A stretch of 64,000 bases of DNA from Escallonia rubra (taxonomy: Eukaryota > Streptophyta > Magnoliopsida > Escalloniales > Escalloniaceae): assembly GCA_033065855.1 (NCBI GenBank), contig JAVXUO010002815.1, positions 144,735 to 208,734 on the forward strand, read 5' to 3'. This document shows positions 1,629 to 41,804 of the stretch, in pieces; position 1 is the stretch's first letter; every line of letters starts with the position of its first letter. A program made the position numbers and the translations under genes. Below the pieces are notes generated by a model. It saw only the letters and a program-made list of their open reading frames with translations, searched no databases and was not told the DNA's origin.

Positions 1629-1951
1629 ACGTCCATGGTATGGAATTGTGTTGCTGCAGATCTTATTTTGCAGGCTGGAAGTTGAGGAGGATTGGACCAT
1701 AATTTTCTTTATCGTCCCCGTTACGCTGAAGAGTAAGCTGATTGCGATGGAATTTCAACCGACTGACTCAATTTAGCGGAGCATCGCAAGTTGCCCGACT
1801 TGTATTGCGATGCCTGGACACCGAACCTAGAAGTCGGCCATCAATGGAAGAAGTTTTGTTTAACTTGGAGGACATAAAGAAAGATGCTTCATCACGAAGA
1901 ACACCAAGAAGCAAGGCTTCAAGTTCAAAACCAATGCTTTGCATCCTGTGA

Positions 1952-9600: not shown

Positions 9601-12600
9601 GTTGTTTCGTAAAGAGGGAGAGTTGTTAAAGAAGCTTTTGAAATCCGAAAGGGTTTGTCTCACTACTGACACTTGGACTTCACTACAAAATATCAATTAC
9701 ATGTGTCTTACAACCCATTGGATTGATTGTGACTGGAATTTGCAAAAGAGAATTATAGCATTTTGTCAAGTTGAAAATCACAAGGGCAAAACAATTGGTA
9801 AAGTGATTAAGACTTGCTTGTTGAATTGAAAAATAGACAGTCTTCTTACCGTAACAGTTGATAATGCGAGTTCTAATGATGGTACTATTAATTATCTAAA
9901 GAGTAAAACTAATAGTTGGAAAAATACTGTCACGAATAATGAGTTCATGCACATGAGGTGTGGCGCTCACATTACCAACCTTATAGTTACTGACGGTATG
10001 AAAGAAGTTCACGAGTCTATTGTGAAGATTCGGAATGCGGTAAGGTTTGTGAGGTCTTCTCCTTCTAGGCTTTTAAGTTTCAAAAAGTGTGTAGAGAAGG
10101 AGAAAATTGAAAGCAAGAGCCTTGTTTGCCTAGATATTCCAACTAGGTGGAATTCTACGTACTTAATGTTGGAAGCTGCCCAAAAATTTCAGAAAGCCTT
10201 TGAAAGATTAGAAGAAGATGATTCGGGCTTCCGTAAGTATTTTTCAGTGTCTTTAAGCGAGGACGAGGACGAGGACACTGGTGGGAGAGGAAGGGCAACA
10301 AATATAGGGCCTCCTTCATTAATAGATTGGGAAAATGCTAGGGTGTTTGTTCAGTTTCTAAATTTTTTTTATGAGGTTACTTTACGGTTTTCGGGTTCTT
10401 TACATGTTACATCCAATGCCTATTTTAATGAAATTATGGCTGTGCGATTGAAATTGGTGCAATTGTGTAAAAGTGCTGATCCTATGTTGTACATTATGGC
10501 TTCTAACATGCTGAAAAAGTTTGAAAAGTATTGGGGAAATGTGGATAAACTGAATAAGTTGGTGTATATTGCTGTTGTGTTGGACCCTCGTCACAAATTG
10601 AAATATGTTAAGTTTTGCTTACGTCAAGTGAATGATTGTGGGGTGGTTAAAGATATTATTGATAAGGTGAAGGACCACTTGGTTCGCTTGTTTGAGCACT
10701 TTGAGCAGGGGGGGTAGTGAAAATAGTGGAAGAAGTCAAGTGTCCAAAGATAATGAGGTTGAGGGAGAAGAATCTTTGGCGGCACAATATCAGAAGCTTT
10801 TAGAGGCAGAAGAGAGTATAGAGAGCAAATCTGAGGTAGAAAGGTATTTGGCTGAGAGTTGTGAAGACCCTAGAAAATCCCTTGATATATTAGGGTGGTG
10901 GAAGGTGAATAGCAGCAAGTATCCTGTCCTCTCTCAGGTAGCGAGGCACATTTTAGCTGTTCCAGTTTCTACAGTTGCTTCCGAATCAGCTTTTAGCACA
11001 GGAGGTCGTATACTTGATCCATTTAGGAGTTCTTTGAATCCAAGGATGGTTGAAACTCTTGTTTGTACTCAAAATTGGTTGAAATGTCCCTCATCCCCTA
11101 TTGATCTTCGACAAGCTATGGACGAGGTTGAGAAGTATGAAGACATCTTTTCAGGTACTTTTTTTGTTAGTGAAATTGCTTTCAATGAATTATTTTGCTG
11201 AATTTCATTATCTTTGCATTTCAGACAACGCAACGGGATCAAATACAAGTAGTTCGAGTGATGCATGTGCATCTATTGTTATTGAGTGAGTCACCAAAAG
11301 GTAACTAAAGTGCATAGCTTTTTCTTTTTATTTTGGGCAGATTCTATTCTTTACCTATAATGTCAGTTTGTATGTAATCCTTTGGCCGTTTGTATATAAT
11401 CCTTTGGCTGTTTATATCACACTTTAGTCACCAAAAGGTATAGATTATATGCTGGTTGAACTTCTCATTCCCTTTCACTTGCTTCCCTGCTTTGTTCTAG
11501 CTTGTAACCATGGATCAGCTAAAATAATGTATGCAGAAGTCAGAAAGATAGAAATAGAATGCCTTTTAAATGTTGTTTCTAACAGTATCATTGGAAAATA
11601 ATTCATTTTAGAAGGGACTGAAAATACAGGTGTAACGTTGGTTTGCAATCTTTTGGATCAAGCCATAGTTTTATACAACGGAAAGTCCTTGATAGCGCAG
11701 CAAAATGTTAAGCAAATCATTGATAGCGCATCAAAATGTTAAGCAAATGTTGTATGAATTGCTCATTGGATGTTGACTGCGACTGTGGCTGAGAAAATGT
11801 TAATAGCAGTAGGTATATGGACAACAGTTCCCAGGAATTTAAGAACTCGTAGCTTGGTAGCATGTGGGTAGCTTGGTAGCAGTACGTATAATGTTGGTTT
11901 GCAATGCTTCACTTTCTAGGAAACATAGATTTAGAAGTTCCTCCATGCTTAACATATTTTCACTTTAACAAGGAACAGTGGAAGTGTCCACTTAATAGAT
12001 TTGATAAGGTACCTAACATAACATTCTCTTGAGGACTACCAAAATGTTCCACGACCAAATCTTCTGCCATATCTTTGGCATCCTTTATCATCGCTTTGTA
12101 CCTTTTCCATTGTGTTTTCACCCTTTGCGTGACTGATTTTTCTTTCATTGCATTTTTTCAGAAATATAGATTATATGTTGGTTGAAGGTTGATTGGCAAT
12201 GAAGGTTTTGAAGATGCTTGTTTGGTTTGAAGACTAAAGAGGACCTCTTTCTTCTTTAAGTTAATCTGATGGATATATTTGATGTGTGTAATTTGATTTA
12301 AAGCTTAACAGATGCTATGTAAGGAGTTATTTTCTTTTGAATGTTATGTAATTTTCATTAGAATTTTAATAATTGCTATGTAATGATTTGTGTGTAATGA
12401 GTTATTTTCTTTGGATGTTATGTAATCTAATTAGAATTTTAGTCTTATGAGCTAAGATCTGCTGAATTACTTGAGTTTTGTTACAAATTTTTAGTTATTT
12501 TGGGCCTAGAATGGAATCTAGCCCAAACCGATTTAATCCGTTTAAACCGAACCGTTCGATCCAGCTAATCCGTTCAAACCGAACCGTTCAACTACGGTTC

Positions 12601-17191: not shown

Positions 17192-18278
17192 ATGAGCGGC
17201 TACGACAGCTCGCCGTCCATGTCGTCCTCACTCAGCCGGCGATTCTCACTCTTCGAGATGAAATCGGCTACCGACAACTTCGCCGACGAACTAGTCATCG
17301 GCCGAGGCGGGTTCGGAAAAGTGTACAAAGGCTCAATCACCGATGGCGAGAACATTACCGTAGCCGTGAAGCGGTTGAACCCCCGCTCTCGCCAAGGAGC
17401 CCGAGAGTTCCGGACTGAAATCGAGATGCTTTCCAGGTTCCGCTACCGGTACCTCGTCTCGCTGATCGGCTACTGTGACCAGTCGGAGGAGATGATCCTC
17501 GTTTACGAGTACATGCCGCGGGGAACCTTAGCCGATCACTTGCACAAATTAGGGAAGAATTACAGTGCGCCGCTTCCGTGGCTACGGCGCCTCAGGATCT
17601 GTATTGACGCGGCGCGTGGGCTGGACTACCTCCATATAGGCACGAGCATCCAGCCAGGCAAGGCGATACACCGCGACGTGAAGAGCTCCAACATCTTGCT
17701 GGATGATAATTGGGACGCCAAGATATCGGATTTTGGGCTGTCCAGATTAGGTCCGGAAGACGAGGCCTACTCCCATGTGAGCACCGAGGTTAAAGGAACG
17801 TTCGGGTATTTGGACCCTGAGTACTCCTTGACCCGCAGACTGACGAGGAAATCAGACGTGTACGCATTTGGGGTGGTGATGCTTGAGGCGCTGTGTGGGA
17901 GGCCGGCGGTGGATTTGAGCGCGGATGAGGAGCAATGGGGTCTGGCCGTCTGGGGGCAGTATTGTATCAGAGAAGGAACGGTGGATGAGATTATTGATCC
18001 TAGTTTGAGAGAGGAAATTAGGAAGGATTGTCTGATGGAGTTTGTGCAGATTGCGGACGAATGCTTGCATCATCTTCCGAGGAAACGTCCCACGATGGCT
18101 GAGGTCGTGGTGCGTCTTGAGTTTGCAATGGCAATGCAGGAAGGAAATGACTCTTCTATAGTTTTCAAGCCTGTGAAGTCGGCTTTGGCGTTGCAAGAGC
18201 AAGAGGATTCTTCAGATATTGTCAAGCCTGCCAAGATGACTAGAAAGGTGCAGCCGTATTTCTCAGGAACAACGTCAG
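17192..18278 (+). other. Exon 1: active-type CrRLK1L-like kinase domain
   Basis: The exon encodes 362 residues plus one base. All catalytic residues are present, including the alpha-C Glu at 76 and the RD pair, so this should be an active Ser/Thr kinase. The donor G|GTACAATC follows 18278. If it is not used, the frame runs on to a TGA ending at 18391 and gives a 399-residue kinase with a hydrophobic, unrelated tail. Base composition is GC-richer than the surroundings, and the exon is intronless, as is usual for CrRLK1L kinase regions. Confidence 0.85.
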
Positions 18279-21200
18279 GTACAATCAAATCCTTTCGTAT
18301 CTGTTTGATTGGTACAGTAAAATGCATTAATTTAAGCGTTCCCACTATTTCTATAAAGGTAGCCTCCCTTTTACCAAATTTTGAAATGTGATCTGGAGAT
18401 ATCAATTCCGAAGAAGCCTCCTTAATATCCTGGATAATATCATCTGTAGCATACGTGAAAGTTTGCAATATGTCAGCATGTAACTTCATTAGTCTTTATT
18501 TGAAAACAAAAAGGAAGTCCGGTAGAGGGTTAGACGTAAGCAGCCCTTTCCCTTTCTATAGAGGGGCTGTTTCTGCGTTTTGAACACGTGGGGTCAAGGT
18601 CATAGTGGAGCAACCTTTCTCTTGCACCAGTGGCGGAGTGAGTGGGGGGCACCAGTGTGCTGGTGCCTACCTGCTTCTCCTTGATTTTTACATTTTATAT
18701 GGTATATTTTATCCCCAAAGAGAAAAGTACCCACTTAAAAATTTTAAAAATGCTTCAAGGAGGTATATTTCTAGTCATGTTACATATTAAGCTACCGAAA
18801 AAATATAAAGATAGTTAAAAAAAAATGTCTTTTTAGTCATTTAAAGTGCTAAACTTACACAAATAAACCAAAAAAACGAAGCCCACACATAAAGTTAACG
18901 CAAAAAATCCTCTTTTTTATCTATTGTTTACAAAGCTTCTATGTTTTTGAAGCCTGAAAGCCACATAACGGACAGAGCACATCGTCTCTTCGGTACCCTC
19001 ACCGGCCGCACGCCCTCAACGCCACGGCCTACTGCCTCCACCTGCAGGTCTACCTCTAGTGACCGGCATAGTCGTGTAGATGGTAGATTTAATCATGGCA
19101 GGATGTTTGAAGTCGTGGTGTATTACTCGATTCGTCGATTTGTTGATTCCTCCGGCATCGTCGATTCGTCTTGGTGTATTGCTTAGATGCAATGATCAAT
19201 ACGTAATGCTCTCCTCATCTTTTCTTTCCCAAATCTCAATATCTCATGTTATTTTCTCCGCCACGATCCTTTTAGCTTGGAAATCATAAAGAACCCTACC
19301 CTTTTTTTTTCCAAAATATAGTGGCACCATCCTTCCACTGATTACTGGAATTGCTCCTCCGCCTCCATGCAAAGTCACAAACCTTAGTCCTCCACCTTGA
19401 AAGCATGGTAAGATCCAGGCTTTCAGTATTTATTCTTAAAATTTTTAATTCCTTGAACTTGGACCTTTTCTTTTTTGTTTCAATTTGGAATTTGATTTTG
19501 GATTTTGGAACTTACAATTTGCAATTGGGACTTCTACTGGGATTCTTAGTTTAAGATTGAGATTTTGTATTTTTAAATTCAGATTGGTACTCATGGGTGG
19601 TGGGTGTATAGGTTTCAAATTGAGATTTGTTGGGATTTCTAATTTTGGATTGAGAGTTTGGCAATTTTTGTGATAATTTCTCTCTTATATATTTGGTGCC
19701 CACCTTAAGAGATTTTTCTGGCTGCGTTACTGTCCTGCACCGAATGAATGGATCGAATTGAGTTGTATGATTTCCTATAAACAACTTTGGCTAGCCAAAT
19801 ATCATGAGAACTTGAATGACTTATTATGAATTTGTTGTATGAGATTTGGCTTCTTTTCACCCCTGACCCCTCCAACAATTTTTGCGTTGTTGATGAAGCC
19901 CCTTTGACCACATTAGAGTCACAAGTACATATGAGAGGGTATCAACATAATTTTGTTGCAGCTTTGCATTTCGTCATCATTGTGAGTTGACCACTTTAAG
20001 CAAATCATGGTACCGTCACTCATCTGATCTGAGCTGCAATGCCTTAGAATGTGCTTTTCGTGAATATGCTCCCTAGGCATTCTTTGAGGATTTTGGGTGC
20101 ATTATCAGATGCATGTACTGATGATTTTTGCACAGACATTCTGATTTGGGTGTAGCTATCTTTCCTTTATGCAGTTATAGAAAGAAAACCTTTCCTATTA
20201 GTTCCTGAATTATACGTATGAGGCAATTCATGCTTTTGTTTCTCTCCTTGTTTCCTATTTCAGTTGATAGTGATACAAAGCCAAACAGTAAATTTACGAG
20301 AGAAATTGCAGAAGGGATGAGGATGAGCAGTTAGAATGCAAGAATAATTTTAACTGAAAAAATCATTTCAATTGCAAAACGGTTGCCGAAATAATGGGAT
20401 ATCAACTCGTAACAAGGACTCGTAATGGATATGCACGCGAGATCCTACTACACTCAAGGCCACGCGCGTAGGGGGCAACTGTAGGGGACTGCCTAATTGA
20501 GGTAGCATGTGAGATAACATGTGCATGACAACGTTTATTATTAATAGACGCAAAACCCACGTGCTAAATAGAGTGAGGAATACTAGACTCGGCAATGTTG
20601 GGTCTTGAGCATGAAACTCGTTAAAGTAGAGATTTAATCATAATTCTGAAAGCCTTATTACTCTTGAATGGAATGACAGAGGACTTCAAGGGAAGTAATA
20701 CGTGTTTAACCTCAATGTCTGCTAAAAAATAGCTCTCAGAACTGAAAGGCTTAAGGCCTTAGGGTTTAACGGACAGGCTCTCAGATTTAGATTTTTAAAA
20801 AATTGTTGGAAGTAAAGTCATTAAAATGGGGAAACTTAGGAAGAGAGAAGGGAAACTCCAAGAAGGCAAGCCTGGAAAAATAACAGACTCAAGCAACTGA
20901 GACGGGCTCGGGAATCAAGTCTGTCTCGAGTAAAAGCAGCCTTCGGTAAAGCGTTGAACTCAGAAGAGGGAGAAATACATGTCTATATTTTGTGATCAGC
21001 ATCTATGTTACATGGACTCGGTACGAGTGTCCAGGTGGGATACATGTCCCAAGTGTCATATTCGCATAGTTTTTAAAACTTAAGACACGGGGAGACAGAG
21101 AAATGGTCAAACATATATGGCTTTAGTTATTTCCAATGTAAATTGGTGTGTTATGTGACATAGATGGTTTTAATTGAGAACTTGTCTCATCTCAAAGCAA

Positions 21201-24200
21201 TAATGAATTAAACGGAACACTAAGATAGTGTTCATAGTGGCATATCATGGGATGTATTAGACACATACATATCACATACCCATTTCCAATGGTTGAGTGT
21301 CTGACACGGGTACTTCATGCATTCTGAAGAGTCCATGCAACATATCAGTACTGAAACTACTCCTATAAATACCCTGTTGTATTCTGACTATTGTTCATTC
21401 ATGATCTTTTGGAATAGCAAAATCTTGTGTTTCTCCAGTCCTTTAATCGTTTTAGCCAGTGTTCTTGAATTTATAATTCATGAGATTTTGTTGTTGAGTC
21501 AGTGCATACCATCACAAACCAAGTGCGACGCCCTGATTTTAGGGAGTACCGACCATCTTACCCTTAAGTGGCACTTATGACCTATAATTTCCGTAATATT
21601 ATTGTTGGAGTCCCTGGTCAAGAAAGACTAACCCTTCGAGTATGCTCAGAAGCACTATGCTGATAACAGTTTCAAAGTTGGTCATGTTGATTTGACTAGC
21701 ATAAATTATCAACAGCATCTCTAAATAAGGAATTATATCCCTCTTTCTTTTGAAGAGGGGGTCGGTTCCCGCGAAGGCCATGATTGTACTTTAATTTGTT
21801 TTTTCAAAATGTGCCCAAACGCCCATACTCTTAATAGAGATAACACTGAGAATAACAACAATGGCATCCCCTGAGGTTTTTTGAAAACCTCCCGAGTTGT
21901 TTGAAAAATTGCAGGCACCTTCTTTCTCAGTGTTGCCAATTGATAGAGATTAACAGAAGTCGTTGATTTTCCTTTGCACCTTTACGTAAATAGCTTCTTT
22001 TACTCTTTTTAACACTATTGTACTCAAATGATAACAAGTTCTGACTAAAATATTGTTTGTTTACTACTCTGTGATCTAGATTTATTTCCATATCAGTGCA
22101 ATCCTTCCTACTTTTCAGTTGCATCAGCATAGATTTATTTCCAAATTCCTTCCTAGTTTTTGTTTGCATCAGAAGTTAAAGATGGTTGCTATCACTAACT
22201 TCACCTTTCATTACCCAATTTACTTGCTTTCTCAATTTCTCTGGTTCTTCCTTCATTTCTCTGTTCAAGTTAGCTGAGTGGAAAAACCTTATAGTCGTCC
22301 CCAGACTAACCATGGCTTTCTCGTTCTTCCGCCGAAAAGTTATCTTCCTGTGACGGTGGTTCTTAATGTTGATCCCTTAAACTTTTCTCTTCCTTGCTAT
22401 TCTCTGTGTTGTGGAGATCACTATGGACTTCTTGAAGGTGTAATAGAGCTCTTGGATTTTTGAGTTCCCCGTGGGTTTTATTTCCATTCAATTCAAGCAA
22501 ATCCTTCTTCTGTTCTTCCTTGTTTTTCCCAATTGAACATCTGAATAGGTTGAGGATCTCCAGAATTGTCTATAGGCTTTATAATATGTTCCTTTTACAG
22601 CTCATACCTGGCCTGAGCCAAAACGCCCCAAAATTAGAGGCCTTTGTATATTGTGTTCACATTATGGACTGTGGCTGAGGGATACTGCATAAAATGGACT
22701 GATCGTGTTCTTAATTTTTTTTTTTCAAAAGTCAGGTCAAGTAGGAGTATATGCTTTTTCTTGAATGTGACAGATTTATGTTTTCCTCCCTATTCTCAGA
22801 ATCCAAAGCAAACACTAAAAGTGACAATAAGAGCGTACAACCTAATGAAGGTGGAGATATTGTCCAGGAAGTTCCCCCGAGTGGCCAAAGCGTGACTCAA
22901 AAGCTGAGTGAGTAATAAGTTGTGTAAATTGGATTGGCCGAATTTTTGTTTATTCCTTACATGTCTGTGGCAACTTAAGTTTAGGATTCTCGTATTGCGT
23001 AACACAATCATGTTTTCATCCCTAGTCTCCGACAGCAAAAAGAACGTTAAAAGCAGCAAGAAAAGTGTATTAGCTAACGGAGATGAAGATACATTCCAGG
23101 AAGTTGCCCCGGGTGGCCAAAATGTGACTCCAAAGCTGAAAGTGGTCACTCTAGGCGAATGGCGAAGCGTTACAGGTACGTTCTAGCTTTGTAAGGTTGA
23201 CACTGTGTTTTCTATTTATTGTTGATAATATAGTAGAATTTTTCTGAGCAATTATGCAAAGTCAACGTGACTCACTTTACGAGGCAATTCAAGCCGACCA
23301 AATACTACCCCTTCGTCTATCAACCCGTGATGAGCAGCTCTTTGGCGATTTCTTCCTAGGTTTTGAATGATCTCTTTGATCGAGAGTGCAGTTAACAGTA
23401 TTAGAAGCGTGATGCCATTGATCACGTGCTTCCACATCTTTAAATTTTCTTCTGCTTGCTGCACCATAAGATCTCTTCTTACATTAGTAGTTCTGGCGAT
23501 GATTCCTTGAAATTCTCTTCTTTGCTATTTTCTGTAATATGCAGATACTTTGGACTTCTGAAGGTGTTTCCAAGCTCTTGAATATGTAGTTGAGCTGCCA
23601 CAGGATTTTTGCTCCATTCAGGGCAATTAAAGTCTTCTATCATGTTTTTTCTTTTGTTGTCATCTAATTGAACATCACGGACAGTCATACCTCACCTGAG
23701 CTAGAAAGCCTCAACAGAGAAAGCCCTTTCCCTAGGTTTGCTTATTGGGTTGACACTAGGCATTGCTGGTCAATGATTAAATGCATAAATTGGATGCATT
23801 GAGTTCTTGAGTTCATAATACGGGGTCCACTTACACTTCCCCCTCTTCTTCATAATTGTTATGGAGGCTCTAAGCATGATGATTACTCGGGCAGTCTCTG
23901 ACAATATAATAAGGACACAGAATTAGGCTAAAATAGCCTGCCCTTCTTGAAGGGATACTCCTCTTTTTATATGCACTGTAATTACATGATTACAGGGATT
24001 TATATTCCCCACAGGTTTTCCTAAAGATATTCCTCACCAAATCTTCTGTAATCTTCTACTGCATATAAGCTAAGCTTTTATTTTACTTACAAATCTCGTA
24101 GGATTATATTTTGATATCCTAATGATATGTGTTTTAATTATATTTTGAGCACAAGTCTAAGGTGCAGATTCCCTCCATTCTTCTGAGACCCCCCTTAAAT

Positions 24201-27200
24201 TGATGCAAGGGAGAACGACGCATCAATTTAGACATAAGAAACTCATGTCAATCTCCTGTCATGGTTTTGTAAGTATATCTGCAAGCTGGAGGGCAGAAGG
24301 CACACGAGGCAAGGAGATAGTCGATGGAAGGAGCTTATCGTGGATTGCATGACAGTCCACTTCAATATGTTTCGTCCGTTCATGAAAAACAGGATTAGAC
24401 GCAAGACAAATAGCACTTGTATTATCCACATGAAGACAAGTCGATGTGTATTGAGGAAACCTGAGTTCGAAAAGCAAGCCACACAGCCACAAAATCTCAG
24501 AACAGGCTGAAGACATAGAACGATATTCAGCTTCAGTAGATGATTTTGAAACACGTTCTAGTTTCTTACACTTCCATGAAATAAGAGATTGACCAAGAAA
24601 CATAACCAACCAGTCGTGGAGCGACGGCTATCAGGACCTGCCCTACCTGCATCGGCAGATGCTTTAAGGCATGTGGTATTATCCGAAGGAAAAGAAAGTC
24701 CAGTACTAGGATGACCACATAGATAGCTAATAATGCGTTGAACAGAAGACATATGAAGATGCGTCGGATCAGTCATGAACTGACTAACAGTATGCATTGC
24801 AAATGATATGTCGGGCCGTGTAATAGAGGGAGAAATCAAATTACCCACCAACCTACAATAGAGAGCTGATCAGTAACAGAATTCCCCGAGTCTTTGGAGT
24901 ACCTGACATTGAGCTCCATGGGAGTGTCAACATAACGAGCGGTATAAAGGTGCGCCAATTTCACCAAATCCTGAATATATTTCTGTTGATTAGCAAATAT
25001 ACCGAAAGGAGAACTATGGACTTCCAGCCCAAGAAGTATGTTCAGGCTCAAGTCTTTCATCTTGAAGTGATGTTTGAGTAGATTTTGTAAACGAAGTATG
25101 CTGAAATGATCACTCCCAGTAATAAGCAAGTCGTCAATGTAAACAAGTAAAATAGTAACGCCATGAACTGTTAAAATGATGGGTTAATTGCATAAAATAC
25201 CCTTGTAGTTTGGGATATTTGCAAAAAGCCACCTAGGATTCCAAAATTTACATACACATAAAATTGCAAAGGTGTTGCATCGTAAAATTTCCGTAACAGA
25301 ATGGTAAAAATGTCTAAATTGCCCCTGCATATAAATCAGAATGCATCAATTTTTCATTTCTAATTTGTGACTTCCAAAGGCATAAAAAATTAGTGGTAAA
25401 CCCAACTCCACCTGGGTTCATCTCAATCGGAAGACATCAGAAGATTTAAGGTCATAATAAATCCATTCCCCCTTATTGTAGCTCTAGTTTTTTTTTCCCC
25501 CCACTTTTAAATGGTGTTAGTGTTGGTGTTGGTGGACAGGGCTAGGCTTGTGGTGGGTGCTTAGTGCTAGTGGCGGGGCTCGCGCCAGCATAAGTGGGGA
25601 TCGATGGGCCTGGCGGCGTTTAGATGTTGATGATTTACCCGAATTGCTCAAACTCAGATCTAGGGTTTCAATCTCACATTGCGATTTGAAACCCTAGATT
25701 TTAGTTTGTGCAATTAGGTTTCGAATTGTTGGTAGCCACAGCGAGATTAGGGTTCGATCTAAGTTTGTGCGATTAGTTTGGGCAGTGATGGTTGCAACGG
25801 GATTGGACTGGGCTGTTGGTGGCGGCGGGATTGGGTGCAGCATTTGACGGCGGCGGGATTGGATGAGGTAGATGGTGGCTCCGATTGTGGGTGGCGCAGG
25901 TGGTAGACGGGGGCGGTGGTGGTGAAGGTGGCGGCTAGGGTTTTGGTTGGCAAGGTTGGCGGCTAGGGTTAGGTTTTGGTGGAATTGGAGAAGAAATTAG
26001 GACTTGTTTGGGAGAGATAAAAAGAGGGAGGGTACTTTCAAGAGAGTGAAGAGCATGCCCCGTTAATTTAGACGACTTCTCTAACAGTTGCAACAAAATA
26101 AGCGCTAGAGGGAGGCCTTTGCAACTTTTGTATCTTCAGGTGGCTTTTTGCAACAACCCCAAACCACGAGGGTATTTTATGCAATTAACCCTAAAATAAT
26201 GAAATTCTGCAGCCAGAATAGTTGAAGAAAACTTTTCGAACCATGCACAAGGAGCCTGCTTGAGCCCATATAAAGATTATCTCAAACGACAAACGAAACT
26301 GGAAGGAACATTGTTAAGGCCTGGTGGAGGGCGTATGTGAACGGTCTCAGAGAGGTTTTCATGAAGTAAAGCATTCTTAACGTCCATTTGTAGCAATGGT
26401 CAGTCCTGGGAAGCAGCTAAGGAGAGGAGTAATCGAACATTAATCAGTTTGGCCACTGGTGCCAATGTCTCCTCATAATCAACCCCATATTCTTGTCGAT
26501 AGCCAAGAGCAACAAGTCTGGCCTTGTACCAATCTAATGTACCGTCGGAGTGAAGTTTGGCAGTGAAGACCCATTTGTATCTAATCAGCGTGATGTGAGG
26601 AGGGCACAGAACCAAGTACCATGTGCGATTCTCATCCAGGGCATCGAGTTCTACTTGCATAGCCTTTTTCCAACAATAATATGTAGTAACTTGCGTAAAG
26701 GAGCAAGGGTTGGGATCAATTAAGGGAGAAACAAGAAATGAAAACCTGTCCAGTGGTTGTGAAATTCTAGAGAACTGACAAAGAGGTGGAGGTGGAGGTG
26801 GAGGCGATGGTGGAGTCAGAGTTGGTACAGATCACTCGTTGGGAGAAGCAGGAGGAAGCTCTAAGGCATTGGACCGGTGATATATATGTGCCTTGGTCTG
26901 AACACAGCAGAAGAATCATCGGAAAAATGCAGGCTATATAAATATATATGATGGTGAAGACGATGTGGAAGATTGAAAATGATAAAGAGTTGTCGAGGAA
27001 GATAACATTGCGAGAAACTCAAATTTTCTATGTACATGGATCATAACACAAGAAACCCTTGTGGCCAGTTGCGTAGCCAACAAACACACATTTAGAAGAC
27101 CGAGGAGACAGCTTATGTCTTTCAGTTTGGGACAGCAGGACAAAACTCAAACAACCCAAAGGATGAAGAGCCAAATAGGAAGGTGATTTCATATGCAACT

Positions 27201-30200
27201 CAAAGAATGGAGTCTCGTTATCCAAGTTAGAGGGTGGCTGTCGATTAATGAGATAGACGCACTTTTGAACCATCTCAACACAGAAAGTTGTAGGCACAAA
27301 ACTTTCGATTAGGATAATTTGAACTGCATCTAAGATGTGACGATTTTTTCGTTTGGCCATGCCATTTTGTTGTGGCGTGGAACGACAAGACTTTTCCCAT
27401 AAAATCCCATATGACTTAAAAAACTCTTATAAAGGGGTAAAAGGATACTCTCCCCCTCAATCTGAGCGAAGAGTTTTTAGTTTCGATGAGAACCGGTCAT
27501 CTATCATAGGAACAAATTGCTGAAAGACTCCAAATACTTCAGACTTGGCATGTAAGAAATACACCCAAGTAAACTGACTAAAATCGTTAATAAAGGCCAC
27601 GAAGTACTTTTATCCACACTGAGAAATAACTGATGGTATTGTAAAAACATCACTATGAACCACATCAATCAAGAACCAGAAACTCATCACGTTGTGGGAA
27701 GGTCTTTGTTTTTTCCAAACTACATGCTTGAAGTTGGAAGTCATTGTCAATAGAGCAAACAATAGGCAACATGTTATTTCGAATCATGAAATTGAGTCTT
27801 TGTCTATTAGGATGACCCAGCCGACGATGCCACAAAGAGTAATCAGAAAAAACAGAGGAAAATGCTGAAAATTTAGTCTCTGGTGGATGTTTATGACGAG
27901 GTTGGTTCTAAAGATCCACTGAAAAGAGTGACACCTCCTTATTCCCCTTCCTCCAATCACCTGCCCCCTTCCCTGGTCCTGTATAACACAACCACTTGGA
28001 GAAAAAAACACATTGCGGTTATTATCAACAAGCTGTCCAGCAGATAATAAGTTGTGAGATAATTTGGGGATATGAAGAACATTAGACAACTTGAGATGGC
28101 TGAGACGTAAATGCTTGGAGATCACCTATGGCTCGGACGGGCATAGATTGTCCGTTTCTTGTACGAACATAAGGGATAGGTGTATGTGGATTTGAAGATT
28201 TAAAGGGCTCAGAATCCCAAGGCATGTGATGAGAAGCTCTTGAAGCAAGATACCATTTAGTTGGAAAAGAGTGAGGCTTACCTGAAAGTCCCATAGATGA
28301 AAAGGCAGCTAGGTTAGCTTGGATCATTTGATGCACTGCCTCAGGAGTGGGATAACACGCAGAATTATTTGCACCAGGAGCTCCAATAGATGAACTCGGA
28401 GAATATTGTGCATCACCAGAAGTATGAAGAGCCTAGGAGTTCGATTTGTTGGACATTCTCGGCGCTCAATTATGATATGCCCATCTTTCTTGCAGTAGTT
28501 GCAGAATATTTCTTTCTGCTTACATTGAGAGGCATAATGCCCGTACGCATGGCATGAAAAACATTCTCAAGTCCTTCTGTTTGGACCTAGATGTTGCTGC
28601 AAAGGCGACACCAGAAGGTCCATGTGTAAAGTGAGCATATGTAGCGTGTTGAGTACGAAGATGTTGTTCCTCCCTTAGAAACTCATTAAAACTAAGAGAT
28701 TTACTAGGTACAGGAGACGTATTAAACAAATTACCGCTTAGAGGCTTAAATTCCCTACGAAGCCTCATGAGGAATTGATGTTTCATAGTTTGCTCATGTA
28801 CCTCTTGGATGATTGCTATCGAATCATCGGGCTTGTCCGCATGTACGAGGGAACTATACTCTTGCCACAATGTCATCAGATCAGAATAATAGTCTTGAAT
28901 AGACCGCTCTCCTTTACTATAGTCTGCTATCTCGTTCTCCAATTGAAAACGCCACTTTCTTTAGATACAACCACATGGCTGCTCAGTCTTGTAAAAGCGT
29001 AGGTTTACCTGAGGATGTACTGAAGAAAGCATCCAACTTACTACCTTCGCATTCAGAATAAGCCACTAGCCATGCTCTGAAGATTTAGTATATTCTGGTT
29101 CCGGCAGAGTTCCATTCAAAATTCCCCACAAATTCTTCCCCGTCAAATACATGCGAAAACTGTATTCCAACAGGAAATAATTATCCCATTGAAGCGATCA
29201 ATCGAGATCCTTTCCATATCCATATTTAGACTAGAGTCGGAAGTGAATCACTTACACACGAATAAAGGACATACCGTTCCGATGTACTGGAAAAAAAAAA
29301 TGACTTCTTCTTTCTGAAGTCCAACTAATCTACTACTGACTACATACTCTAGTAAGCAGATGAAAAAGAAACAATCTGGTTGATAGAATTCATTGAAGTG
29401 CAGGGAAGGAAAGTTGTGCGAAAAGACTAGACTTCTACAGTCTAGTTCAAAGAAATCCTCCTGAGTAGAAAAAAGCTCCGATACCAAGGACAAAGAATTT
29501 GACTAAGATAGCCTGCCCTTCTTGCAGGGCTATTCCTCTATTTATATGCATTGTAATTACATGATTACAGGGATTTAGCAATCTTTACATGATTACAGGG
29601 ATTTAGCAATCTTCACATGATTACAGGGATTTACAATCCGCACAAATATTCCTAAAGGTATTCTTCACCAAATCATCTGTAATCTTCTACCGTAAATAAG
29701 CTAAGCTGATATTGTACTTGCAAATCTCCTAGCAGTATATTCTGATTTCCTAATGATATGCGCTTTAATTATACTTTGAGCACAAGTCTAAGGCCAGTCG
29801 TGACCAACCAGATTCCCTCCATTCTTCTGACAGTATCTTGTGGTTTTCTGGAAGTCTTCATAGTTGGGGGCTGGGAAGAGCGAGTACTGTTGTCTCCCAT
29901 TTGCTTTTTGTGGATTATATCCTTTTCTGTGGGGCTGAAAAATCTTAGCTGACGTACGTAAGAATTGTTCTTTTATGCTTTGAAGGGTGTCCTGAAAATC
30001 TTGCCAGTGGGAAAGGTTGGTTATGATTCCATTTTCGGCAGACACTTTGGGATGCAAGGTAAGCTCTGTACCTACTTCTTACTTGTGTTTGCTTTTGGAA
30101 GCGAAATGGAATCTTAAGCAGTTTGGGTTCCTATTTTTGCGCACCTTGACTCTAGATTAGCGGGGTGGAAGAGGCAATACCTTCTAAAGGGAGAAGGCTT

Positions 30201-33200
30201 ACATTTATTAAGTGCTCTCTTTGTAACCTCCCTATTTACTTTGTCTTTTTTCTCTATTCCTGTTTCTGTTTAGGAGAGACTTGATAAGCTTAGGTGGGAG
30301 TTCCTTTGGCTGGGGAATGAGGAATGTTTTAAATACATTGCTCTCCAATTTCAGAAGTTGGGTTGGATGTGAAAGATTTGTGGGTCCTTATTCAGGCTCT
30401 TTTACGCAAATGGTTTTGGATATTTCTGATGGAGGAAGGCTTTTGTCAAGGAAGGTGGTGGATCGTAGATTTTGTAAGGAGGCTACTGTTTCCGATAAAT
30501 TGACCTTTTCAGATGGAGAAGTGTCTGGAATCCACATCTTAGAAGGGATTTGCATGTTTGGGAACTTGAAGCCGTGAGTCGATTGGTGGATGTCCCAGAT
30601 ATATACGGATGCTTTTACTATACCTGATGATATGCTTTCGTGGTGGCCGTTCAGCAACGGAATCTTTTCTGTTCTATCGTTTTATCTATGTTGAGGAAGA
30701 GGGCTAATGTGTTTTCCTTGGAGAGGTATTTGGTGTGTTGATGCCCCTCGAAGGATGGCTTTCTTGTGTGGTCTGCCCTACATGGTGCTATATGGACTGC
30801 TGATAATCTGCGGCGGAACAAACTTTCATTTGTTGGTTTTATACGTATAAAAAGGATAAAATCAATTGGTCACTTGTTTCTCCATTGTGAGACTATGAGA
30901 AGTTTCTCGTGTTTGCTCTTTGCTACTTTCATAATGATGTGGTTGATGCTGACATCAGTTGAGGATTTGATTTGGAAGGAATGGGGCAAAGGTTCCAAAG
31001 AGTGGTTGTAATGAGTAGGGTTTAGCACCTTCTTGTATTACTTAGGGCATGTGGAGGGAAAAGAAGTTGAGGGCTTTTGCTTTTTTGGAGAGTCCTCACC
31101 GATGGCAGCATTCTTTTGTGCACCGCTTCTTCTCTTGGGTCAATGAGGAGTTTACAGGATCTTCTGATGCTTTTCGAGACCTTTTAGATAATTTAAGAAT
31201 AGCTTCATCTGCATAATGTTGCTTGGTTTTCTGACACTTTCTAGTTATTTTAGATGATTTGAGGATAGCTTCATCTATATGATGTGGTTTGTGGTTTATC
31301 TGGAGCACCTCCTTGGTGCTTTGGGCTTCTTTTATATGTGGGTTCCTTCCCCCCCCCCCCCCCCCCCGCCCCCCCTATAGGGCTTTTTCTATTAAGATTC
31401 TTACTTATGAAAAGAATTTGACGTATATGCTTCTCATAATGTTACGACTTCATGTTTCCCTTCCTTATCTCAGACACAGAAAAGCCCATTAAAAGCGGCA
31501 ATAAAAGTGCATCACCAAACAAAGATGGATATGTTGTCCAGGAAATTCCTCCGAGTGGCCAAAATGTGACTCAAAAGGTGAAAGTATTCACCTTTGCTGA
31601 ATTGAATATTGCTATGGGGTACTCTTTACTCGAGCCAGGAAGAGCTTTTTGGGTCAATGAGAAGACATATGCCCCGTCGAAGGCTGGCATCGGCATGGCT
31701 ATTACATTTGAGCTTTTAGAGAGACATGAAGACCTTCTAGGCGTTCAAAAGGGGCAGGTAATTTACTTCCGTACTTGCCGTCCTCCACCTTGATTTTATA
31801 AGTGTAGAAAAACGGATTTCTTCTATGAAAAATCTGTGAGTCCTAGAAGAACCAATTGTTTGTCTTTGTAGGTGCTTGGATAGGAAATAATTCGTAAAAC
31901 ACACGTAAGAATGCTGTTTATAAGTCACGTCTAGGGTGCATATATTTGTGTGAAAAACTGTTTACGTGTGTGTGTTCATGTTTCAACTTGATATTAGAAT
32001 ATGACATGCTTGATTTGTTTGTACCAGATGCACAAAGAATTTAGAGCTGTTGTCAACTTCTGGTACAGTTGAAGATCTAGGTAGTCTATAACTAAATCAA
32101 TGGCGTCTTCATACAGTAAATATCTTGGTAGTCCTATGTGATGTGTGTGTGCCTTTGACAACTAGTATATGAGATTCCTGATGATGCAATGTTCTGAGGC
32201 ATCGTTAACTTGAAACTTTTTCTTTTATGATTATTGTCCTAAAATCCTTCGTCTAAATTTTTTTGACACTAGCTCTATAAAACACACTTGATTGTTGCTT
32301 GACTAAGAGGGTGAGCCTTGTCACAACCATAAGGTTGCTCCATTGTGACCTGGAGGTCAAAGGTTTGAGACAAGAAACAACATCTCCATGAAAGTGGGGA
32401 AAGACTGCGTACATCGACCCTTGCTAGACCCCGCAACTGGGGAAGCCGCATGCACTGGCTGCCCCCCTTTTCTTCGTTGTAGCTTGACTGTGATGCTTTT
32501 GATATTACTATTTTCCTTTTACTCTTTACCACATTCTAAATTTGAGAGAGATGAGAAAACGTTTTTGTACCGCTTGTAAGTGCTTTAGGGATATCCTCTG
32601 GACCAAATTTCCTTTTTCTTCAACCTCTATTAAGAAGTACAGTGAGTGTCACAGAAGTACATCAGTTTTGAATGTAAAGCATCCCTAGTGAAAATTTGTA
32701 ATGTGCTTGAGAGGTAGAGAAAGTATATGGCTGCAATCCTTGTCAGTATAAAATAGAATTATACAGGATGAGCGCATGAACTGTGCCCTACAGCTTTTTC
32801 CTTTATGCAAGTTATAGGGTCAGGGAAAGGCGGAAAGCCTAGCATTTTAAGGGATAATGCAATTACCTCTGTTTGTGTGTTTGTCCTCAACAACCCCCCC
32901 CCCCCCCCCCCCGAACAAAAGAAAAACCACATCGACTTGTACGTGAAGTTTGAAGTGGTGTCATAGCCAATACCATGAACGTATGACCAGAATTCAATCA
33001 TTCAGTTGCCTTAGGCCTTATGCCAAGTTGCTTTCAGATGTACTATGTGCTTATGTTACTAAAGAAAGGTTAATCAAGACCTAAGATTGACCAATTTTAT
33101 AAGGAGCAAACCATAATACAACTTCCTGAAAAGCTGGACTTTCTTTATAAACAAGAAGGAAAGACAGCTGTTGTTTTTTCACAGGAAATGTTTGGTATAA

Positions 33201-35360
33201 AAACATGATATATCTATATAGCAGAAGCACGCAAGCATTTCATTGTCACTAAACAGAAAGGAATCTTTACACACACACACACACTTATGGAGGAAGAGTA
33301 TGAAAAAGAACGAAAAAAACAATCTGGAATGTGATCAAATTTAGAAGAATGGTCTAACGATTTGAGAAACATGTAGCACCACAAGATACACTAGTAGTAG
33401 AATATTACTTTAGCTAGTTATATTTTTTAACATTTATCGCAAATTTGTGGATGCAGTGGTTGGAGGCTTTCCTATCAAAATTTAGTCATCCTAATCTTGT
33501 CAAGCACTTAGGATACTGCTTGGAAGACAAGGAACTTTTTCTTATGTACAAAATCATGCAGAACGGAAGCTTAGATAGCAATCTTTCTGCAAGTAAGCAA
33601 TACTCGTAAAAGTTCATGATCCCAATACTCCTTTATAATTGAACTGTGACAGATAGATAATAACATTTGCAGAAGCTGCACAACCACTTCCGTGGGTTAC
33701 ACGGCTTAAAATAGCAATTGAAGCTGCTCAAGCCCTTGCTTTTTTGCACGCAACGGAGAACCAAGTCATGTACTTCAGCTTTACGGCGTCTAAGATACTG
33801 TTGGATGGGGTACATTGACATCTTTCATGATACACACACACACACACTTACACTTAAAAGAACCCATTTTCTTCAATTTGGTGCAAATCCACTACTTATT
33901 GTCTTGCTCTCTTCAAATTTCTTTTCAGGATTTTAATGCAAAGCTTATTGGTTTTGGAATAGATTTGGTATGCCACAATGAAATTCGCGATATGGCTGGT
34001 TATAACAACCCGAATGTTTTGTTTTCAGATTTATGGGTTCCTGAATACAATGGTAAGTTGTCCAATTGCTTTCTTTTATTTGTAAGAGGCACCTAATCAC
34101 GCTTGTTTATGTAAGATGGCAGTTGTTGTTCGATTTAAATTGAAGAGGATACTATTGGATGAAGTATGACGACAAACCCTTCAGAAGACAAGTTCTAGTT
34201 GAAGTATGTAAAATAGCCTAGAACAATAATTATGAACAAACTTATTATGCTGTTAGAAATCCTAACATGAATGTTGTTAGAACGCTGCAAAACATCGATC
34301 ACAGGGAAACTACACAATCGCTCTTTTCTCCAAGCGATAGAGGTGAACCATGATACCAAGGAGGTTGTCAATTGACACACCTCACAGCGAGGAATGAGTT
34401 CCAGTCTTGTGCTATTGCAATGAAAATTATGCTTGGATTTGCTTCGGTTTGATAATCAATTATTTATGGTAGTGCTTAAGGGCTTCTTGGTATGTAAGAC
34501 TGTATTGCAATAGAGTCAAAGTAGGAAGCAAATATAGGGGAAAAAAAAAACTAGGCAACTTAGCCCTCCCACTTTCCATCAATTGCTGTTCTTATCTTTA
34601 AGTTTAGGTCAAGGAAGCAGCTGTGTGTATTAATTGTCCATACTGTGAGCAATCCTTTTGCCTTGCGTAGGCATAGATATACCACTCCTACGTATTCATA
34701 AAAATTATCTTATTGAAACTTTGACTTAATTCTCTTTAGGAAAACATTTGCATGCGTGTATGACACTTTTGAGTACCTAGTTTGTGCTAGGTCTATCTAT
34801 TAGTGTGACGTAACTGTATGCTTGGATCTTAATGTTGTTTCACGTTATAAAATAAAGAACTAAAGCAATAAAAAATGTACACTTATCCATTGGAAGCTTA
34901 GACGTGGCCCAAATAGACGGTTTCAGGATAATGCGTGGTGAAACAACCAAAATGCCATTAATCGAATTGAATGTCGCGCAGGTTTATCAAGAATATATTG
35001 GAAGACCATTATGATTAACACCCTCCAAATTGTGCAGGTAATGTGGATTCTTTGACTGTTAATAGTGACGTTTACGGTTTCGGAGTGGTCTTGGTGCAAA
35101 TACTGACAGGCAGGCAGGCACATGATAGGAGTCGACCGTTTCCTGAAAGAAATTTGGTGAGTTGGGTTAGGCCTTTCTTAGGCAATGTGAGAAAGCACAA
35201 GATGATAATGGATGCACGCCTGGAAGACGGGTATCCTTCACGTGGAGCATCTCAAGTTGCTTTACTTGCACGATCATGTCTCGTGCACGACCCTGAACTA
35301 CGGCCATCGATGGAAGAGGTCCTGGAGGTTTTGAAAAATGTTAGGTCTTGGAGATGTTGA
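17192..35360 (+). CDS. Tandem kinase protein: CrRLK1L-like kinase fused to PBL-like pseudokinase
   Basis: Eight exons (17192-18278, 22800-22907, 23026-23175, 31474-31757, 33457-33592, 33673-33809, 33929-34052, 35038-35360) join with GT-AG introns and matching phases to give 782 residues. Residues 30-310 form a complete kinase: glycine loop GRGGFG 37-42, VAVK Lys60, HRD 160-162, Asn167, DFG 180-182 and [10 protein letters not shown] 202-211. It is closest to the cytosolic half of FERONIA-type CrRLK1L receptors, but has no signal peptide, ectodomain or membrane segment. Residues 363-490 are a Lys/Ser-rich linker of repeated modules. The rest is a PBL-like pseudokinase. Family knowledge: kinase-pseudokinase proteins such as barley RPG1 and wheat WTK1 act in immunity. 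A similar role here is inference. Splice sites are read by eye. The alternative is two adjacent genes, with the first ending at the stop near 18391. Confidence 0.72.
18279..22799. other. Intron 1 of the tandem kinase gene
   Basis: This 4.5-kb intron holds one bounded hAT element (18628-19732). No conserved coding segment is visible. Sequence at about 22410-22700 is repeated imperfectly at about 23530-23800 in intron 3, showing that the linker exons arose by segmental duplication of exon plus flanking intron. Confidence 0.6.
18628..19732. mobile_element. Non-autonomous hAT element in kinase intron 1
   Basis: It starts CAGTGGCGGAGTG at 18628 and ends GGCTGCGTTACTG at 19732, an imperfect TIR pair of the CAGTGGCGG family. 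It is flanked by TCTTGCAC (18620-18627) and TCCTGCAC (19733-19740), a 7/8 target duplication. The 1105-bp interior has no transposase. Confidence 0.78.
22800..23175 (+). other. Exons 2 and 3: repeated linker modules
   Basis: Exon 2 (22800-22907) and exon 3 (23026-23175) both enter and leave in phase 1. They carry the same module as the start of exon 4: a Lys/Ser-rich run, then [14 protein letters not shown] in exon 2 and [14 protein letters not shown] in exon 3, compared with [14 protein letters not shown] in exon 4. Exon 3 runs on into [11 protein letters not shown], which parallels the pre-kinase [11 protein letters not shown] of exon 4. Exons 2 and 3 therefore look like truncated copies of the first exon of a PBL-like kinase. 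The 118-bp intron between them is normal in length. Confidence 0.7.
23912..24188 (-). repeat. 3' LTR of copia element 2
   Basis: This 277-bp LTR matches 29487-29832 but has only one copy of the ACATGATTACAGGGATTTA unit that is present three times in the other LTR. Confidence 0.85.
24243..25180 (-). pseudogene. copia 2 reverse transcriptase end and RNase H
   Basis: The minus strand encodes a YIDD-type reverse transcriptase motif at about 25130-25150 followed by LLITGSD. After it come the post-RT region with [16 protein letters not shown] (about 24760-24830) and RNase H with [13 protein letters not shown] (about 24500-24545). The pieces lie in different frames and are separated by stops. The gene is cut upstream by the Mutator-like element at 25181. 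Confidence 0.88.
25181..26191. mobile_element. Mutator-like element (non-autonomous) inside copia 2
   Basis: Long TIRs of about 55 bp begin GGGTTAATTGCATAAAATAC at 25181 and end with the complement at 26191. They are flanked by a 9-bp near-duplication, TAAAATGAT (25172-25180) and TAAAATAAT (26192-26200). The 9-bp target site and long TIR are the Mutator signature. The 1011-bp interior is G-rich and has no transposase. It interrupts the reverse transcriptase region of the copia element, so it is younger than that element. Confidence 0.88.
26192..28945 (-). pseudogene. copia 2 gag, protease, integrase and RT start
   Basis: On the minus strand a gag-like frame (28520-28942; [19 protein letters not shown]) leads to a zinc-knuckle region near 28480. 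Next are protease and pre-integrase segments (27784-28336; [18 protein letters not shown]), and integrase C-terminal residues (27028-27360; RPAKRKNRH-type start, [12 protein letters not shown]). The RT start is at 26400-26660 ([20 protein letters not shown]). Frameshifts and stops separate every piece. Confidence 0.85.
29487..29832 (-). repeat. 5' LTR of copia element 2 with internal triplication
   Basis: This 346-bp LTR contains three tandem copies of a roughly 29-bp unit around ACATGATTACAGGGATTTA (about 29548-29635). The other LTR has one copy, which accounts for the 69-bp length difference. Confidence 0.87.
29838..31060 (+). mobile_element. LINE (L1-type) 3' remnant
   Basis: Decayed plus-strand fragments match plant LINE reverse transcriptase in order. 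There is an SHLLFVDY segment at about 29895-29920 where the family has FADD, then LLCFEG (about 29968) and a [11 protein letters not shown] segment (about 30280-30320). The final zinc-binding domain has [17 protein letters not shown] (about 30766-30815) and SIGHLFLHC (about 30865-30890). Frameshifts and stops are frequent. It lies in intron 3 of the tandem kinase gene. I cannot define the ends or a poly-A tail. Confidence 0.65.
31349..31375. repeat. Poly-C tract in intron 3
   Basis: A run of about 19 C, one G and 7 C lies about 100 bp before the exon 4 acceptor. The transcript carries the C-rich strand. The other strand could form G-quadruplexes. Confidence 0.8.
31474..35360 (+). other. Exons 4-8: PBL/RLCK-like pseudokinase half of the tandem kinase
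   Basis: Exon 4 begins with the linker module, then FTFAEL. The glycine loop of the family is deleted ([17 protein letters not shown] keeps only the flanks), and the VAVK lysine is gone (GMAITFELL). Exon 5 has [13 protein letters not shown]. Exon 6 has [15 protein letters not shown] where the family has YRDFKASNILLDG, so the catalytic Asp, Lys and Asn are lost. Exon 7 has GFG for DFG and no recognisable activation-loop APE. Exon 8 keeps the structural [11 protein letters not shown] and RPSMEEVLE. Splice phases stay open throughout with no stop, which suggests selection for a folded but non-catalytic domain. Confidence 0.75.
32894..32912. repeat. Poly-C tract in intron 4
   Basis: A run of 19 C, again inside an intron of the tandem kinase gene. 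Confidence 0.85.
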
Positions 35361-40781: not shown

Positions 40782-41804
40782 TCATAGGCGTTTGATAAAA
40801 GCAGCCAAACGTTTGATCATGCCCTGGGCTTTCTCACTCTCAGGCTTGAATACATGGAAGGCATGACCCTCTCCTTCCACCTCAAACAACTCCACTTCTC
40901 CCTGCCAGCCACTTTCCCTCACTGCATCGAAGTATCGAACGCCTCTTTCTCTCAACTCGTCGTCGGATGCAACGCAAACAAGTACTCTAGAGCACCCCAG
41001 ACCCGACAGGTGTGGCGCATTTGGAGCAAAAGGATTGATCATTGGGTTATCGAATCCGTCCGGTGCCAATGGATAGGCTAGCATCCATGTCTGATACAAT
41101 AAACCCTTGTCATGATCAACGAGAGGCTCGGATCCAATTGGTTTTGACCCCAAAAAGTATGGATGGCAGAGAAACGCTCCATAAATTTTGACACCACAGG
41201 ACAAGCTTTTAGCATTGGTAGTCTCGTGCACTGGACTGCCCTTCTTAAAATACATACCGTTGTTAGCAGTGCTAGCCCTTATGGCTATGTTGTGCACAAT
41301 ATTAGCTCCTGCGCTGTCACCACCGAGATAGACACGACCAAAATCGCCATGGCCAAGTAACCAAGGCTCTTTGTCGCCATTCTCTCCATCAGCATGTGAT
41401 GCCACCCATTGGAGAGCTGCCCAAGAATCTTCATAAGCACTGGGTAGAGGGTGCTCCGGGGCTAACCTATATTCAACGGACACAACAAGGGCTTGGGATT
41501 GAGAAACCAGGTCACTTATGTAACGGTGGCTAAGGACGGAGAAGGCGGACCCGATGAGAAAACCTCCACCATGGAAATAGACTAAAATGGGTAGTTTTTC
41601 TTCAGCGCCTGAGAGCTTTGGGAGGTAAACTCGCGCTGAGATTTCTGGTGATATTTTGATGTCTTTAGATAGAACACCGGAAGTTGGATCTTCGAGTGAG
41701 GGAGGGACATAAGGTGAGTCTAAATATCGCTCGACGGAGCCGTCTTTGAAGATCCTAAGGAATGGTAGAAGCTCTGAGACTACCTCTTTTGTGTTGGAGA
41801 CCAT
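40782..41804 (-). CDS. Carboxylesterase (AtCXE12/13-like), copy 1
   Basis: An intronless 340-residue alpha/beta-hydrolase of the plant CXE family. The oxyanion motif HGGG is at 78-81, followed by GF. The nucleophile elbow is GDSAG with Ser164, then the acid Asp282 (in VCVASDDELRERG) and His314 (GEGHAFH). No signal peptide is seen, so it is probably cytosolic. Family members hydrolyse short acyl esters of xenobiotics and specialised metabolites. The substrate here is unknown. It differs from its neighbours by an extra loop of about 20 residues at 182-202. It is the downstream-most of four tandem copies on the minus strand. ATG at 41804 fits the family start. Confidence 0.93.
   Translation of the reverse strand: MVSNTKEVVSELLPFLRIFKDGSVERYLDSPYVPPSLEDPTSGVLSKDIKISPEISARVYLPKLSGAEEKLPILVYFHGGGFLIGSAFSVLSHRYISDLVSQSQALVVSVEYRLAPEHPLPSAYEDSWAALQWVASHADGENGDKEPWLLGHGDFGRVYLGGDSAGANIVHNIAIRASTANNGMYFKKGSPVHETTNAKSLSCGVKIYGAFLCHPYFLGSKPIGSEPLVDHDKGLLYQTWMLAYPLAPDGFDNPMINPFAPNAPHLSGLGCSRVLVCVASDDELRERGVRYFDAVRESGWQGEVELFEVEGEGHAFHVFKPESEKAQGMIKRLAAFIKRL

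Follow-up and report, generated by a model that had tools for sequence, protein, structure and literature searches.

In a window of 64,000 nucleotides from Escallonia rubra (contig JAVXUO010002815.1, here C1403:144735-208734; positions without a contig or locus prefix refer to this window), we found a predicted gene of eight exons on the forward strand that appears to encode a soluble tandem kinase protein (TKP). Its front half is a CrRLK1L/Pto-type kinase that is competent by its motifs, and its rear half is a dead kinase of the RLCK-VII type. A search of the window's own genome (566 Mb, 3222 contigs) placed the gene in a clustered family in which the front seems conserved and the rear diversifying and, in one clear case, exchanged. 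We favour, though well short of certainty, the reading that this is a single gene of such a family, in which the rear domain has taken on a bait or regulatory role.

An eight-exon frame joins two kinase domains

The eight exons rebuilt from the window give a spliced frame of 2349 nt (782 codons plus stop) with no internal stop, identical to the one that an earlier note, made from the letters alone, had proposed; all seven introns have GT-AG borders and the phases are compatible, the exons starting in phases 0, 1, 1, 1, 0, 1, 0 and 1. The exons, and the open tail that follows the first of them, are as follows.

17192..18278, + strand: exon 1, the whole CrRLK1L-type kinase and a linker tail, with the phase-1 donor CAG/gtacaa
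18279..18391, + strand: open tail past the exon-1 donor, up to the next in-frame stop; intron-like evolution in the sisters
22800..22907, + strand: exon 2, linker repeat copy, symmetric 1-1
23026..23175, + strand: exon 3, linker repeat copy, symmetric 1-1; the least certain exon
31474..31757, + strand: exon 4, third linker copy and a degenerate N-lobe; P-loop and VAIK lysine lost
33457..33592, + strand: exon 5, rear pseudokinase
33673..33809, + strand: exon 6, YFS at the HRD position
33929..34052, + strand: exon 7, GFG at the DFG position; PEY kept
35038..35360, + strand: exon 8, with the alpha-F Asp and the alpha-I Arg still present and TGA as stop codon

When a spliced aligner was run with the model against the DNA from 22701 on, exons 3-8 came back unchanged, as did the end of exon 2; on this DNA, which lacks exon 1, it extended exon 2 upstream to 22781. 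One repeat unit occurs three times, as exon 2, as exon 3 and at the start of exon 4; exon 4 starts in phase 1, and since exons 2 and 3 both have phase 1 at their two ends, the frame survives the skipping of either. Exon 3 is the weakest of the eight: an acceptor lying nearby in the sister locus L010 is missing from the window copy, and the L010 copy has no donor at the matching place. The linker has no Pfam match, whereas both kinase halves pass the Pfam kinase cut-offs. A possible orphan exon at 29986-30058 (+), which resembles a degenerate P-loop (GVLKILP...FGMQ), meets a stop when joined to the good exon-3 donor and was excluded from the 782-residue model.

A CrRLK1L-derived front kinase and an RLCK-VII-type rear pseudokinase

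A complete kinase lies within exon 1, with its catalytic motifs intact in sequence, and its best solved relative in a PDB search was FERONIA (343 bits), followed by 2qkw_B (Pto, 278) and BIK1 (228). In a tree of 31 rows the front kinases grouped with FER and Pto (100/100), and the selection measure omega for the front kinase, summed over 120 pairs, was 0.32. No membrane segment was found in the 782-residue model, whose six highest hydropathy windows all fall within kinase folds, and no malectin-like ectodomain was seen upstream of exon 1, where inspection by eye, with no domain search there, revealed short frames and a transposon only. On sequence grounds, the front is a CrRLK1L-derived kinase and not a CrRLK1L receptor, and it is predicted to be active.

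Exons 4-8 matched BIK1 with 202 bits, PBL2 with 193 and FERONIA with 77 in the same kind of search. The RLCK-VII rears stood beside BIK1, PBL2 and RIPK in the tree at 84/97, a support under the program's star mark, and its long-branch warning concerns the stretch between the FER and CARK1 groups. The window rear has EPGR in place of the P-loop motif, TFEL in the VAIK region, and YFS and GFG where HRD and DFG are expected, and it retains PEY, the alpha-F Asp and the alpha-I Arg, the pattern of an RLCK-VII (BIK1/PBL2-type) pseudokinase with the catalytic motifs lost and the fold-marking residues kept. Two kinase domains are found in one predicted protein, and by motifs one is a kinase and the other a pseudokinase, both of them features of TKPs. 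The 343 bits of the front and the 202 bits of the rear, together with sister loci of the same donor, phase and layout, confirm that the predicted tandem-kinase frame exceeds chance. The earlier note had read an apparently active FERONIA-type kinase followed by an RLCK/PBL-type pseudokinase, with no ectodomain or membrane segment, and had proposed a phylogeny of each half as a check; bit scores, motifs, hydropathy and both tree placements agree with that picture.

The exon-1 junction and the fused sister loci

The front kinase has at least 126 matches in the genome and belongs to a large family. Exon 1 was aligned for the window copy and 18 sister loci (19 rows). The donor GT is kept in 18 of the 19 rows, L017 having lost that part, and the exon-1 length leaves phase 1 in 17, with L017 and L026 as the exceptions. 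Indels were counted in 15 rows against the window as reference, after L017, L022 and L026 had been dropped: the length is divisible by three for all 27 upstream of the donor but not for 30 of the 33 downstream, raw counts that repeat shared events, one window-specific base making up 15 of the 30. With every combination of site and size entered a single time, 8 of 8 were in frame before the donor versus 2 of 9 after it, a split with a chance of 45/24310, or about 0.002 (calculated by hand). Past the donor, the frame of the sisters closes at many different places. The indel contrast and these scattered stops indicate that the tail at 18279..18391 evolves as an intron. A transcript ending at 18391, which the earlier note had named as a result that would speak against the fusion, was therefore discarded as made unlikely by the conserved donor and the intron-like tail.

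RLCK-VII kinases have an N-terminal, often acylated, start exon of their own. A narrow motif scan for MGxC starts between the kinases (13 regions) gave two hits, both in the window; these MG-C strings, in intron 1, in our judgement resemble no kinase start, and an own start exon for the rear kinase was rejected. At the loci with RLCK-VIII rears, the only hit of the start-exon scan was a weak one, in L027, with none in L010, L012 or L020.

Behind the front-kinase copies, 20 stretches were taken along with four shorter ones, and 23 sister stretches were searched for a second kinase. RLCK-VII-type rear exons were found in 12 of them (L011, L013, L014, L014x, L015, L016, L017, L018, L019, L023, L038 and L039) and RLCK-VIII-type exons in four (L010, L012, L020 and L027); the latter rears group with CARK1 in the tree (100/100), and a phase-1 acceptor lies ahead of the first RLCK-VIII exon of L020. 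The other seven (L009, L021, L022, L024, L025, L026 and L028) hold no second kinase, or another kinase, inside the stretch; among these, L009 is cut at a contig end, and L022 and L028 show the linker or an exon-4 start only. Nearly identical to each other, L014 and L015 possibly represent two haplotypes.

Sister frames were assembled from exon 1, the exon-4 equivalent at its phase-1 acceptor and the remainder. The fused frame is open to a stop in all ten RLCK-VII loci so assembled (675-817 aa), a set from which L014x and L017 were left out, in which the L039 start lies beyond its stretch and L011 was assembled without exon 2, and for which the aligner penalises stops. Loosely fixed borders are the exon 7-8 border at several loci, L023 exons 6-7, the weak L011 acceptor and a 57-nt L018 intron. 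A frameshift in L018 exon 8 was considered and dropped, both pieces lying in one open frame; the aligner nonetheless set the doubtful 57-nt intron there. The earlier note had also named, as a refuting result, the lack of a fused transcript together with that of any orthologous fusion elsewhere, and here ten paralogous fused loci lie in the same genome, while a sunflower report discussed below probably shows the same pair. The window thus appears to hold a single gene encoding a predicted fused tandem kinase, whose halves are probably transcribed together.

Probable exchange of the rear module

Over the 2.7 kb of exon 1, intron 1 and exon 2, L010 and L011 show 97.8% identity, and beyond exon 2 they share little except one 298-bp stretch at 89%; behind these near-identical fronts, the rear is of the RLCK-VIII type in L010 and of the RLCK-VII type in L011. 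We take this pair as a recent exchange of the rear module; a chimera of the assembly would be another possibility, and the recurrence of the L010 RLCK-VIII layout at three other loci counts against it. The front of the window gene (intron 1 and linker exons) resembles L010, with 82% identity over 1.9 kb, and its rear resembles L018, with 84.6% over 4.2 kb, introns included. Because phase 1 is common to the linker exons and the rear acceptors, a rear swap would leave the frame unbroken, and phase-matched exchange may have been the actual route.

A wider scheme can be put forward tentatively, and we think it less likely than not: a one-exon CrRLK1L kinase with a phase-1 donor would capture RLCK-VII or RLCK-VIII rears that have no start exon of their own and open in phase 1 with the first exon left to them, recombination within the linker introns would swap these rears, and the captured kinases would decay into varied baits. 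If true, this would be the tandem-kinase counterpart of the integrated decoys of nucleotide-binding leucine-rich repeat receptors (NLRs).

Rearranged fragments at L015:9770-9991 and L017:4351-4575, in which exon-7-like sequence follows directly on the first 46 front-kinase residues, may be a sign that front and rear kinases have recombined. A retrocopy or an intronless rear kinase possibly lies at G000:C1936:98865-99806 (-), where rear exons 5, 6 and 8 have matches that each come with an open frame of 370 aa.

Graded decay of the rear kinase

The rear-kinase motifs are intact in L038 and L039, whose rears, as one pair, gave an omega of 0.24 (p 5e-18). If the first Met of L038 is its start, the protein would comprise, as judged by eye, a signal-like start, a short spacer, a membrane-type segment and the kinase, with no room for a malectin ectodomain. 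The L011 rear retains P-loop, lysine, catalytic Asp and DFG; P-loop and HRD are lost from the rears of L013-L016, L019 and L023, of which L019 and L023 are also without the DFG Asp; and all four motifs are lost in the rears of the window copy, L018 and L014x. Judged by these motifs, the sisters appear to form a graded decay series, from two apparently active kinases to degenerate rears.

Among the rears of L013-L016, L019 and L023, omega was 0.61-0.81 in 13 of 15 pairs, with p below 0.05 in 7 of these 13; the remaining pairs gave 5.7 (L014-L015, near-identical) and 1.9 (L019-L023). Comparing the window rear with those of L011, L016, L019 and L023 gave 0.43-0.62, over a span that includes time when the domain may have been active.

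Alternative readings and a possible mechanism

The strongest alternative, unlikely in our judgement, is that the front kinase is the functional gene and the window rear a decaying pseudogene, spliced or not, that is still open by chance. Several observations weigh on this side and against the reading that we prefer. For the window rear, the comparison with L018 gives an omega of 0.75 (p 0.17) and that with L014x one of 0.71 (p 0.13), both indistinguishable from neutral, and three pairs of RLCK-VIII rears gave 0.97, 0.99 and 1.08. Stops interrupt two of the 13 RLCK-VII rear modules, window included (L014x and L017), as well as the RLCK-VIII exons of L020. Fronts are damaged too, L014x, L027 and L028 being in pieces, L017 cut and L022 carrying a stop, and transposon debris lies inside the 8.3-kb intron 3. 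Given their omega, the L020 stops and the broken L027 front, the RLCK-VIII rears are not claimed as proven fusions. A decaying rear is opposed by the ten open frames among ten assembled sisters, by the donor kept in 18 of 19 rows and by a neutral simulation (substitutions only, without indels), in which the probability of no stop in exons 2-8 was 9.3% at 0.05, 1.6% at 0.09 and 0.1% at 0.18 changes per site; under this simulation, the open exons lend modest support to constraint.

A second alternative, which we consider improbable, would make the protein a fused regulator of CrRLK1L growth or cell-wall signalling and not an immune sensor, with a receptor-type kinase and its cytoplasmic client in one chain and the dead rear as inhibitor or scaffold. 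The rear families are the two named downstream of FERONIA in PMC10515002 (cited, like all papers below, for the excerpts available to us), the motifs of both kinases are intact in L038 and L039, and a membrane-type segment precedes the front kinase of these two; the clustered, fragment-rich loci and the turnover of rears look more like resistance-gene evolution. That the join is an artefact of gene modelling, with two neighbouring genes and no shared transcript, is very improbable, for although exon 1 can be read on to the stop at 18391, the kept donor, the indel contrast across it, the lack of a convincing start between the kinases and the ten open fused sisters all speak for one gene.

Under the preferred single-gene reading, a rear RLCK-VII kinase without its own start exon would have been joined to the one-exon front through a phase-1 splice junction. 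Its rear domain, from a family of FERONIA partners, may act as bait or regulatory partner beside the active front kinase, a role suggested by FER-RIPK/MARIS (PMC10515002), by AvrPto-FER (PMC12341878) and by WTK3-WTN1 (PMC12839863). A pathogen protein or an upstream signal acting on the rear would release the front kinase into defence signalling, perhaps via an NLR partner by analogy with the wheat pair. From the same three sets of findings, the role is probably an immune one; a conserved front with varied rears resembles a fast-changing immune gene family, and the function is putative.

If this reading is right, one genome preserves stages between a membrane-type pair of two intact kinases and a soluble kinase-pseudokinase, together with a recent exchange of the rear, so that the origin of tandem kinase immune proteins, and why their second domain is dead and variable, becomes testable. 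It would also suggest that some eudicot dual kinases are a receptor-type kinase fused to its own downstream partner family, and would offer eudicot candidates beyond the cereal tandem kinase genes.

Other features of the window

1772-1880, + strand: relic of a sister-group exon 8
9059-11201, + strand: transposase-like frames, of which the one tested (9059-9829) has a BED zinc finger
20264..20334, + strand: probably, as judged by eye, a decayed copy of the start that exon 4 has in L013-L016, L019 and L023; a phase-1 acceptor is followed by a stop; outside the model
23911..29830, - strand: long terminal repeat (LTR) retrotransposon-like insert in intron 3, with repeats at about 23911-24186 and 29486-29830
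30176-30488, + strand: intron-3 sequence with a counterpart directly behind exon 1 in L018
40782-48610, - strand: four carboxylesterase-like frames in a row, of which the one tested (40782-41846) matches Abhydrolase_3

The exon-8 relic, together with a stop-bearing fragment of a front kinase further upstream on this contig (C1403:132758-133315), suggests that the window gene is set in a decayed tandem array. We take the LTR insert to be copia-like and the sequence at 30176-30488 to be presumably LINE-like (long interspersed nuclear element); two frames of the insert and the frame 30227-30577 in intron 3 had no Pfam match.

Comparison with known systems

Pto and Pti1 reportedly form a signalling pair from the same kinase families as front and rear, as separate proteins. 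A literature search pairing Pti1 with RLCK-VIII gave no match; CARK1 (PDB 5XD6) is described as a member of RLCK VIII, the subfamily of Pti1-1 to 4 and MARIS (PMC6006248). Between FER and RIPK (RLCK-VII) phosphorylation goes both ways, and MARIS (RLCK-VIII) is a component downstream of FER (PMC10515002). The kinase families of FERONIA-RIPK and FERONIA-MARIS are those of the front and rear modules here, but as separate proteins, whereas the Escallonia modules share one predicted chain, whose rear is dead in the window copy. AvrPto, an effector from bacteria, both binds FER and inhibits it (PMC12341878); in wheat, the tandem kinase WTK3 has the NLR WTN1 as its working partner (PMC12839863).

Among the 92 TKPs described by Klymiuk et al. 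(PMC6170490) are 40 fusions, which fall into 10 family combinations; CrRLK1L is not among the receptor-like kinase (RLK) families named for TKPs in the available part of that paper, and no CrRLK1L-RLCK fusion is among the wheat dual-kinase RLKs named in the excerpt of PMC11968617. Like the Escallonia gene, the cereal TKPs WTK1/Yr15 and RPG1 have kinase and pseudokinase in one chain without an ectodomain, and WTK1 is a fusion of two families (PMC6170490). The likeness to cereal TKPs drawn by the earlier note, with other parent families, holds: WAK and RLCK_8 in WTK1, CrRLK1L and RLCK-VII here. Paralogues of WTK1 on groups 1 and 6 keep KinI (~80%) and not KinII (~30%) (PMC6170490). Resistance is proven for WTK1/Yr15 and RPG1 and putative for the Escallonia gene, as the earlier note had already treated it.

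The closest counterparts are the CrRLK1L-1 dual kinases of sunflower and lettuce, candidates for OrDeb2/OrAnom1 (e.g. Chr04g0142441, 662 aa; PMC8866362), which the earlier note overlooked, as it did the clustered family with differing rears. Like the Escallonia gene, they have two kinase domains with an active site in the left one only, lack ectodomain and membrane segment, and are clustered; they differ in that both halves were called homologous to the same Arabidopsis CrRLK1L genes (PMC8866362). Two short genes of Helianthus anomalus match the long sunflower CrRLK1L-1 gene contiguously; one is annotated as RLCK-VIIa-2 and the other resembles a gene of that type (PMC10884359), so the CrRLK1L and RLCK-VII pair is probably present in sunflower as well. 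Module exchange, relatives with two active kinases and linker repeats are Escallonia features not found in the available parts of either account (PMC8866362, PMC10884359), and a literature search, which did not cover the TKP atlas (Nature Genetics), found no description of module exchange in the CrRLK1L dual-kinase family. The kind of gene is already known from sunflower and lettuce, and what the Escallonia family adds is the exchange of modules and the graded decay of the rear kinase.

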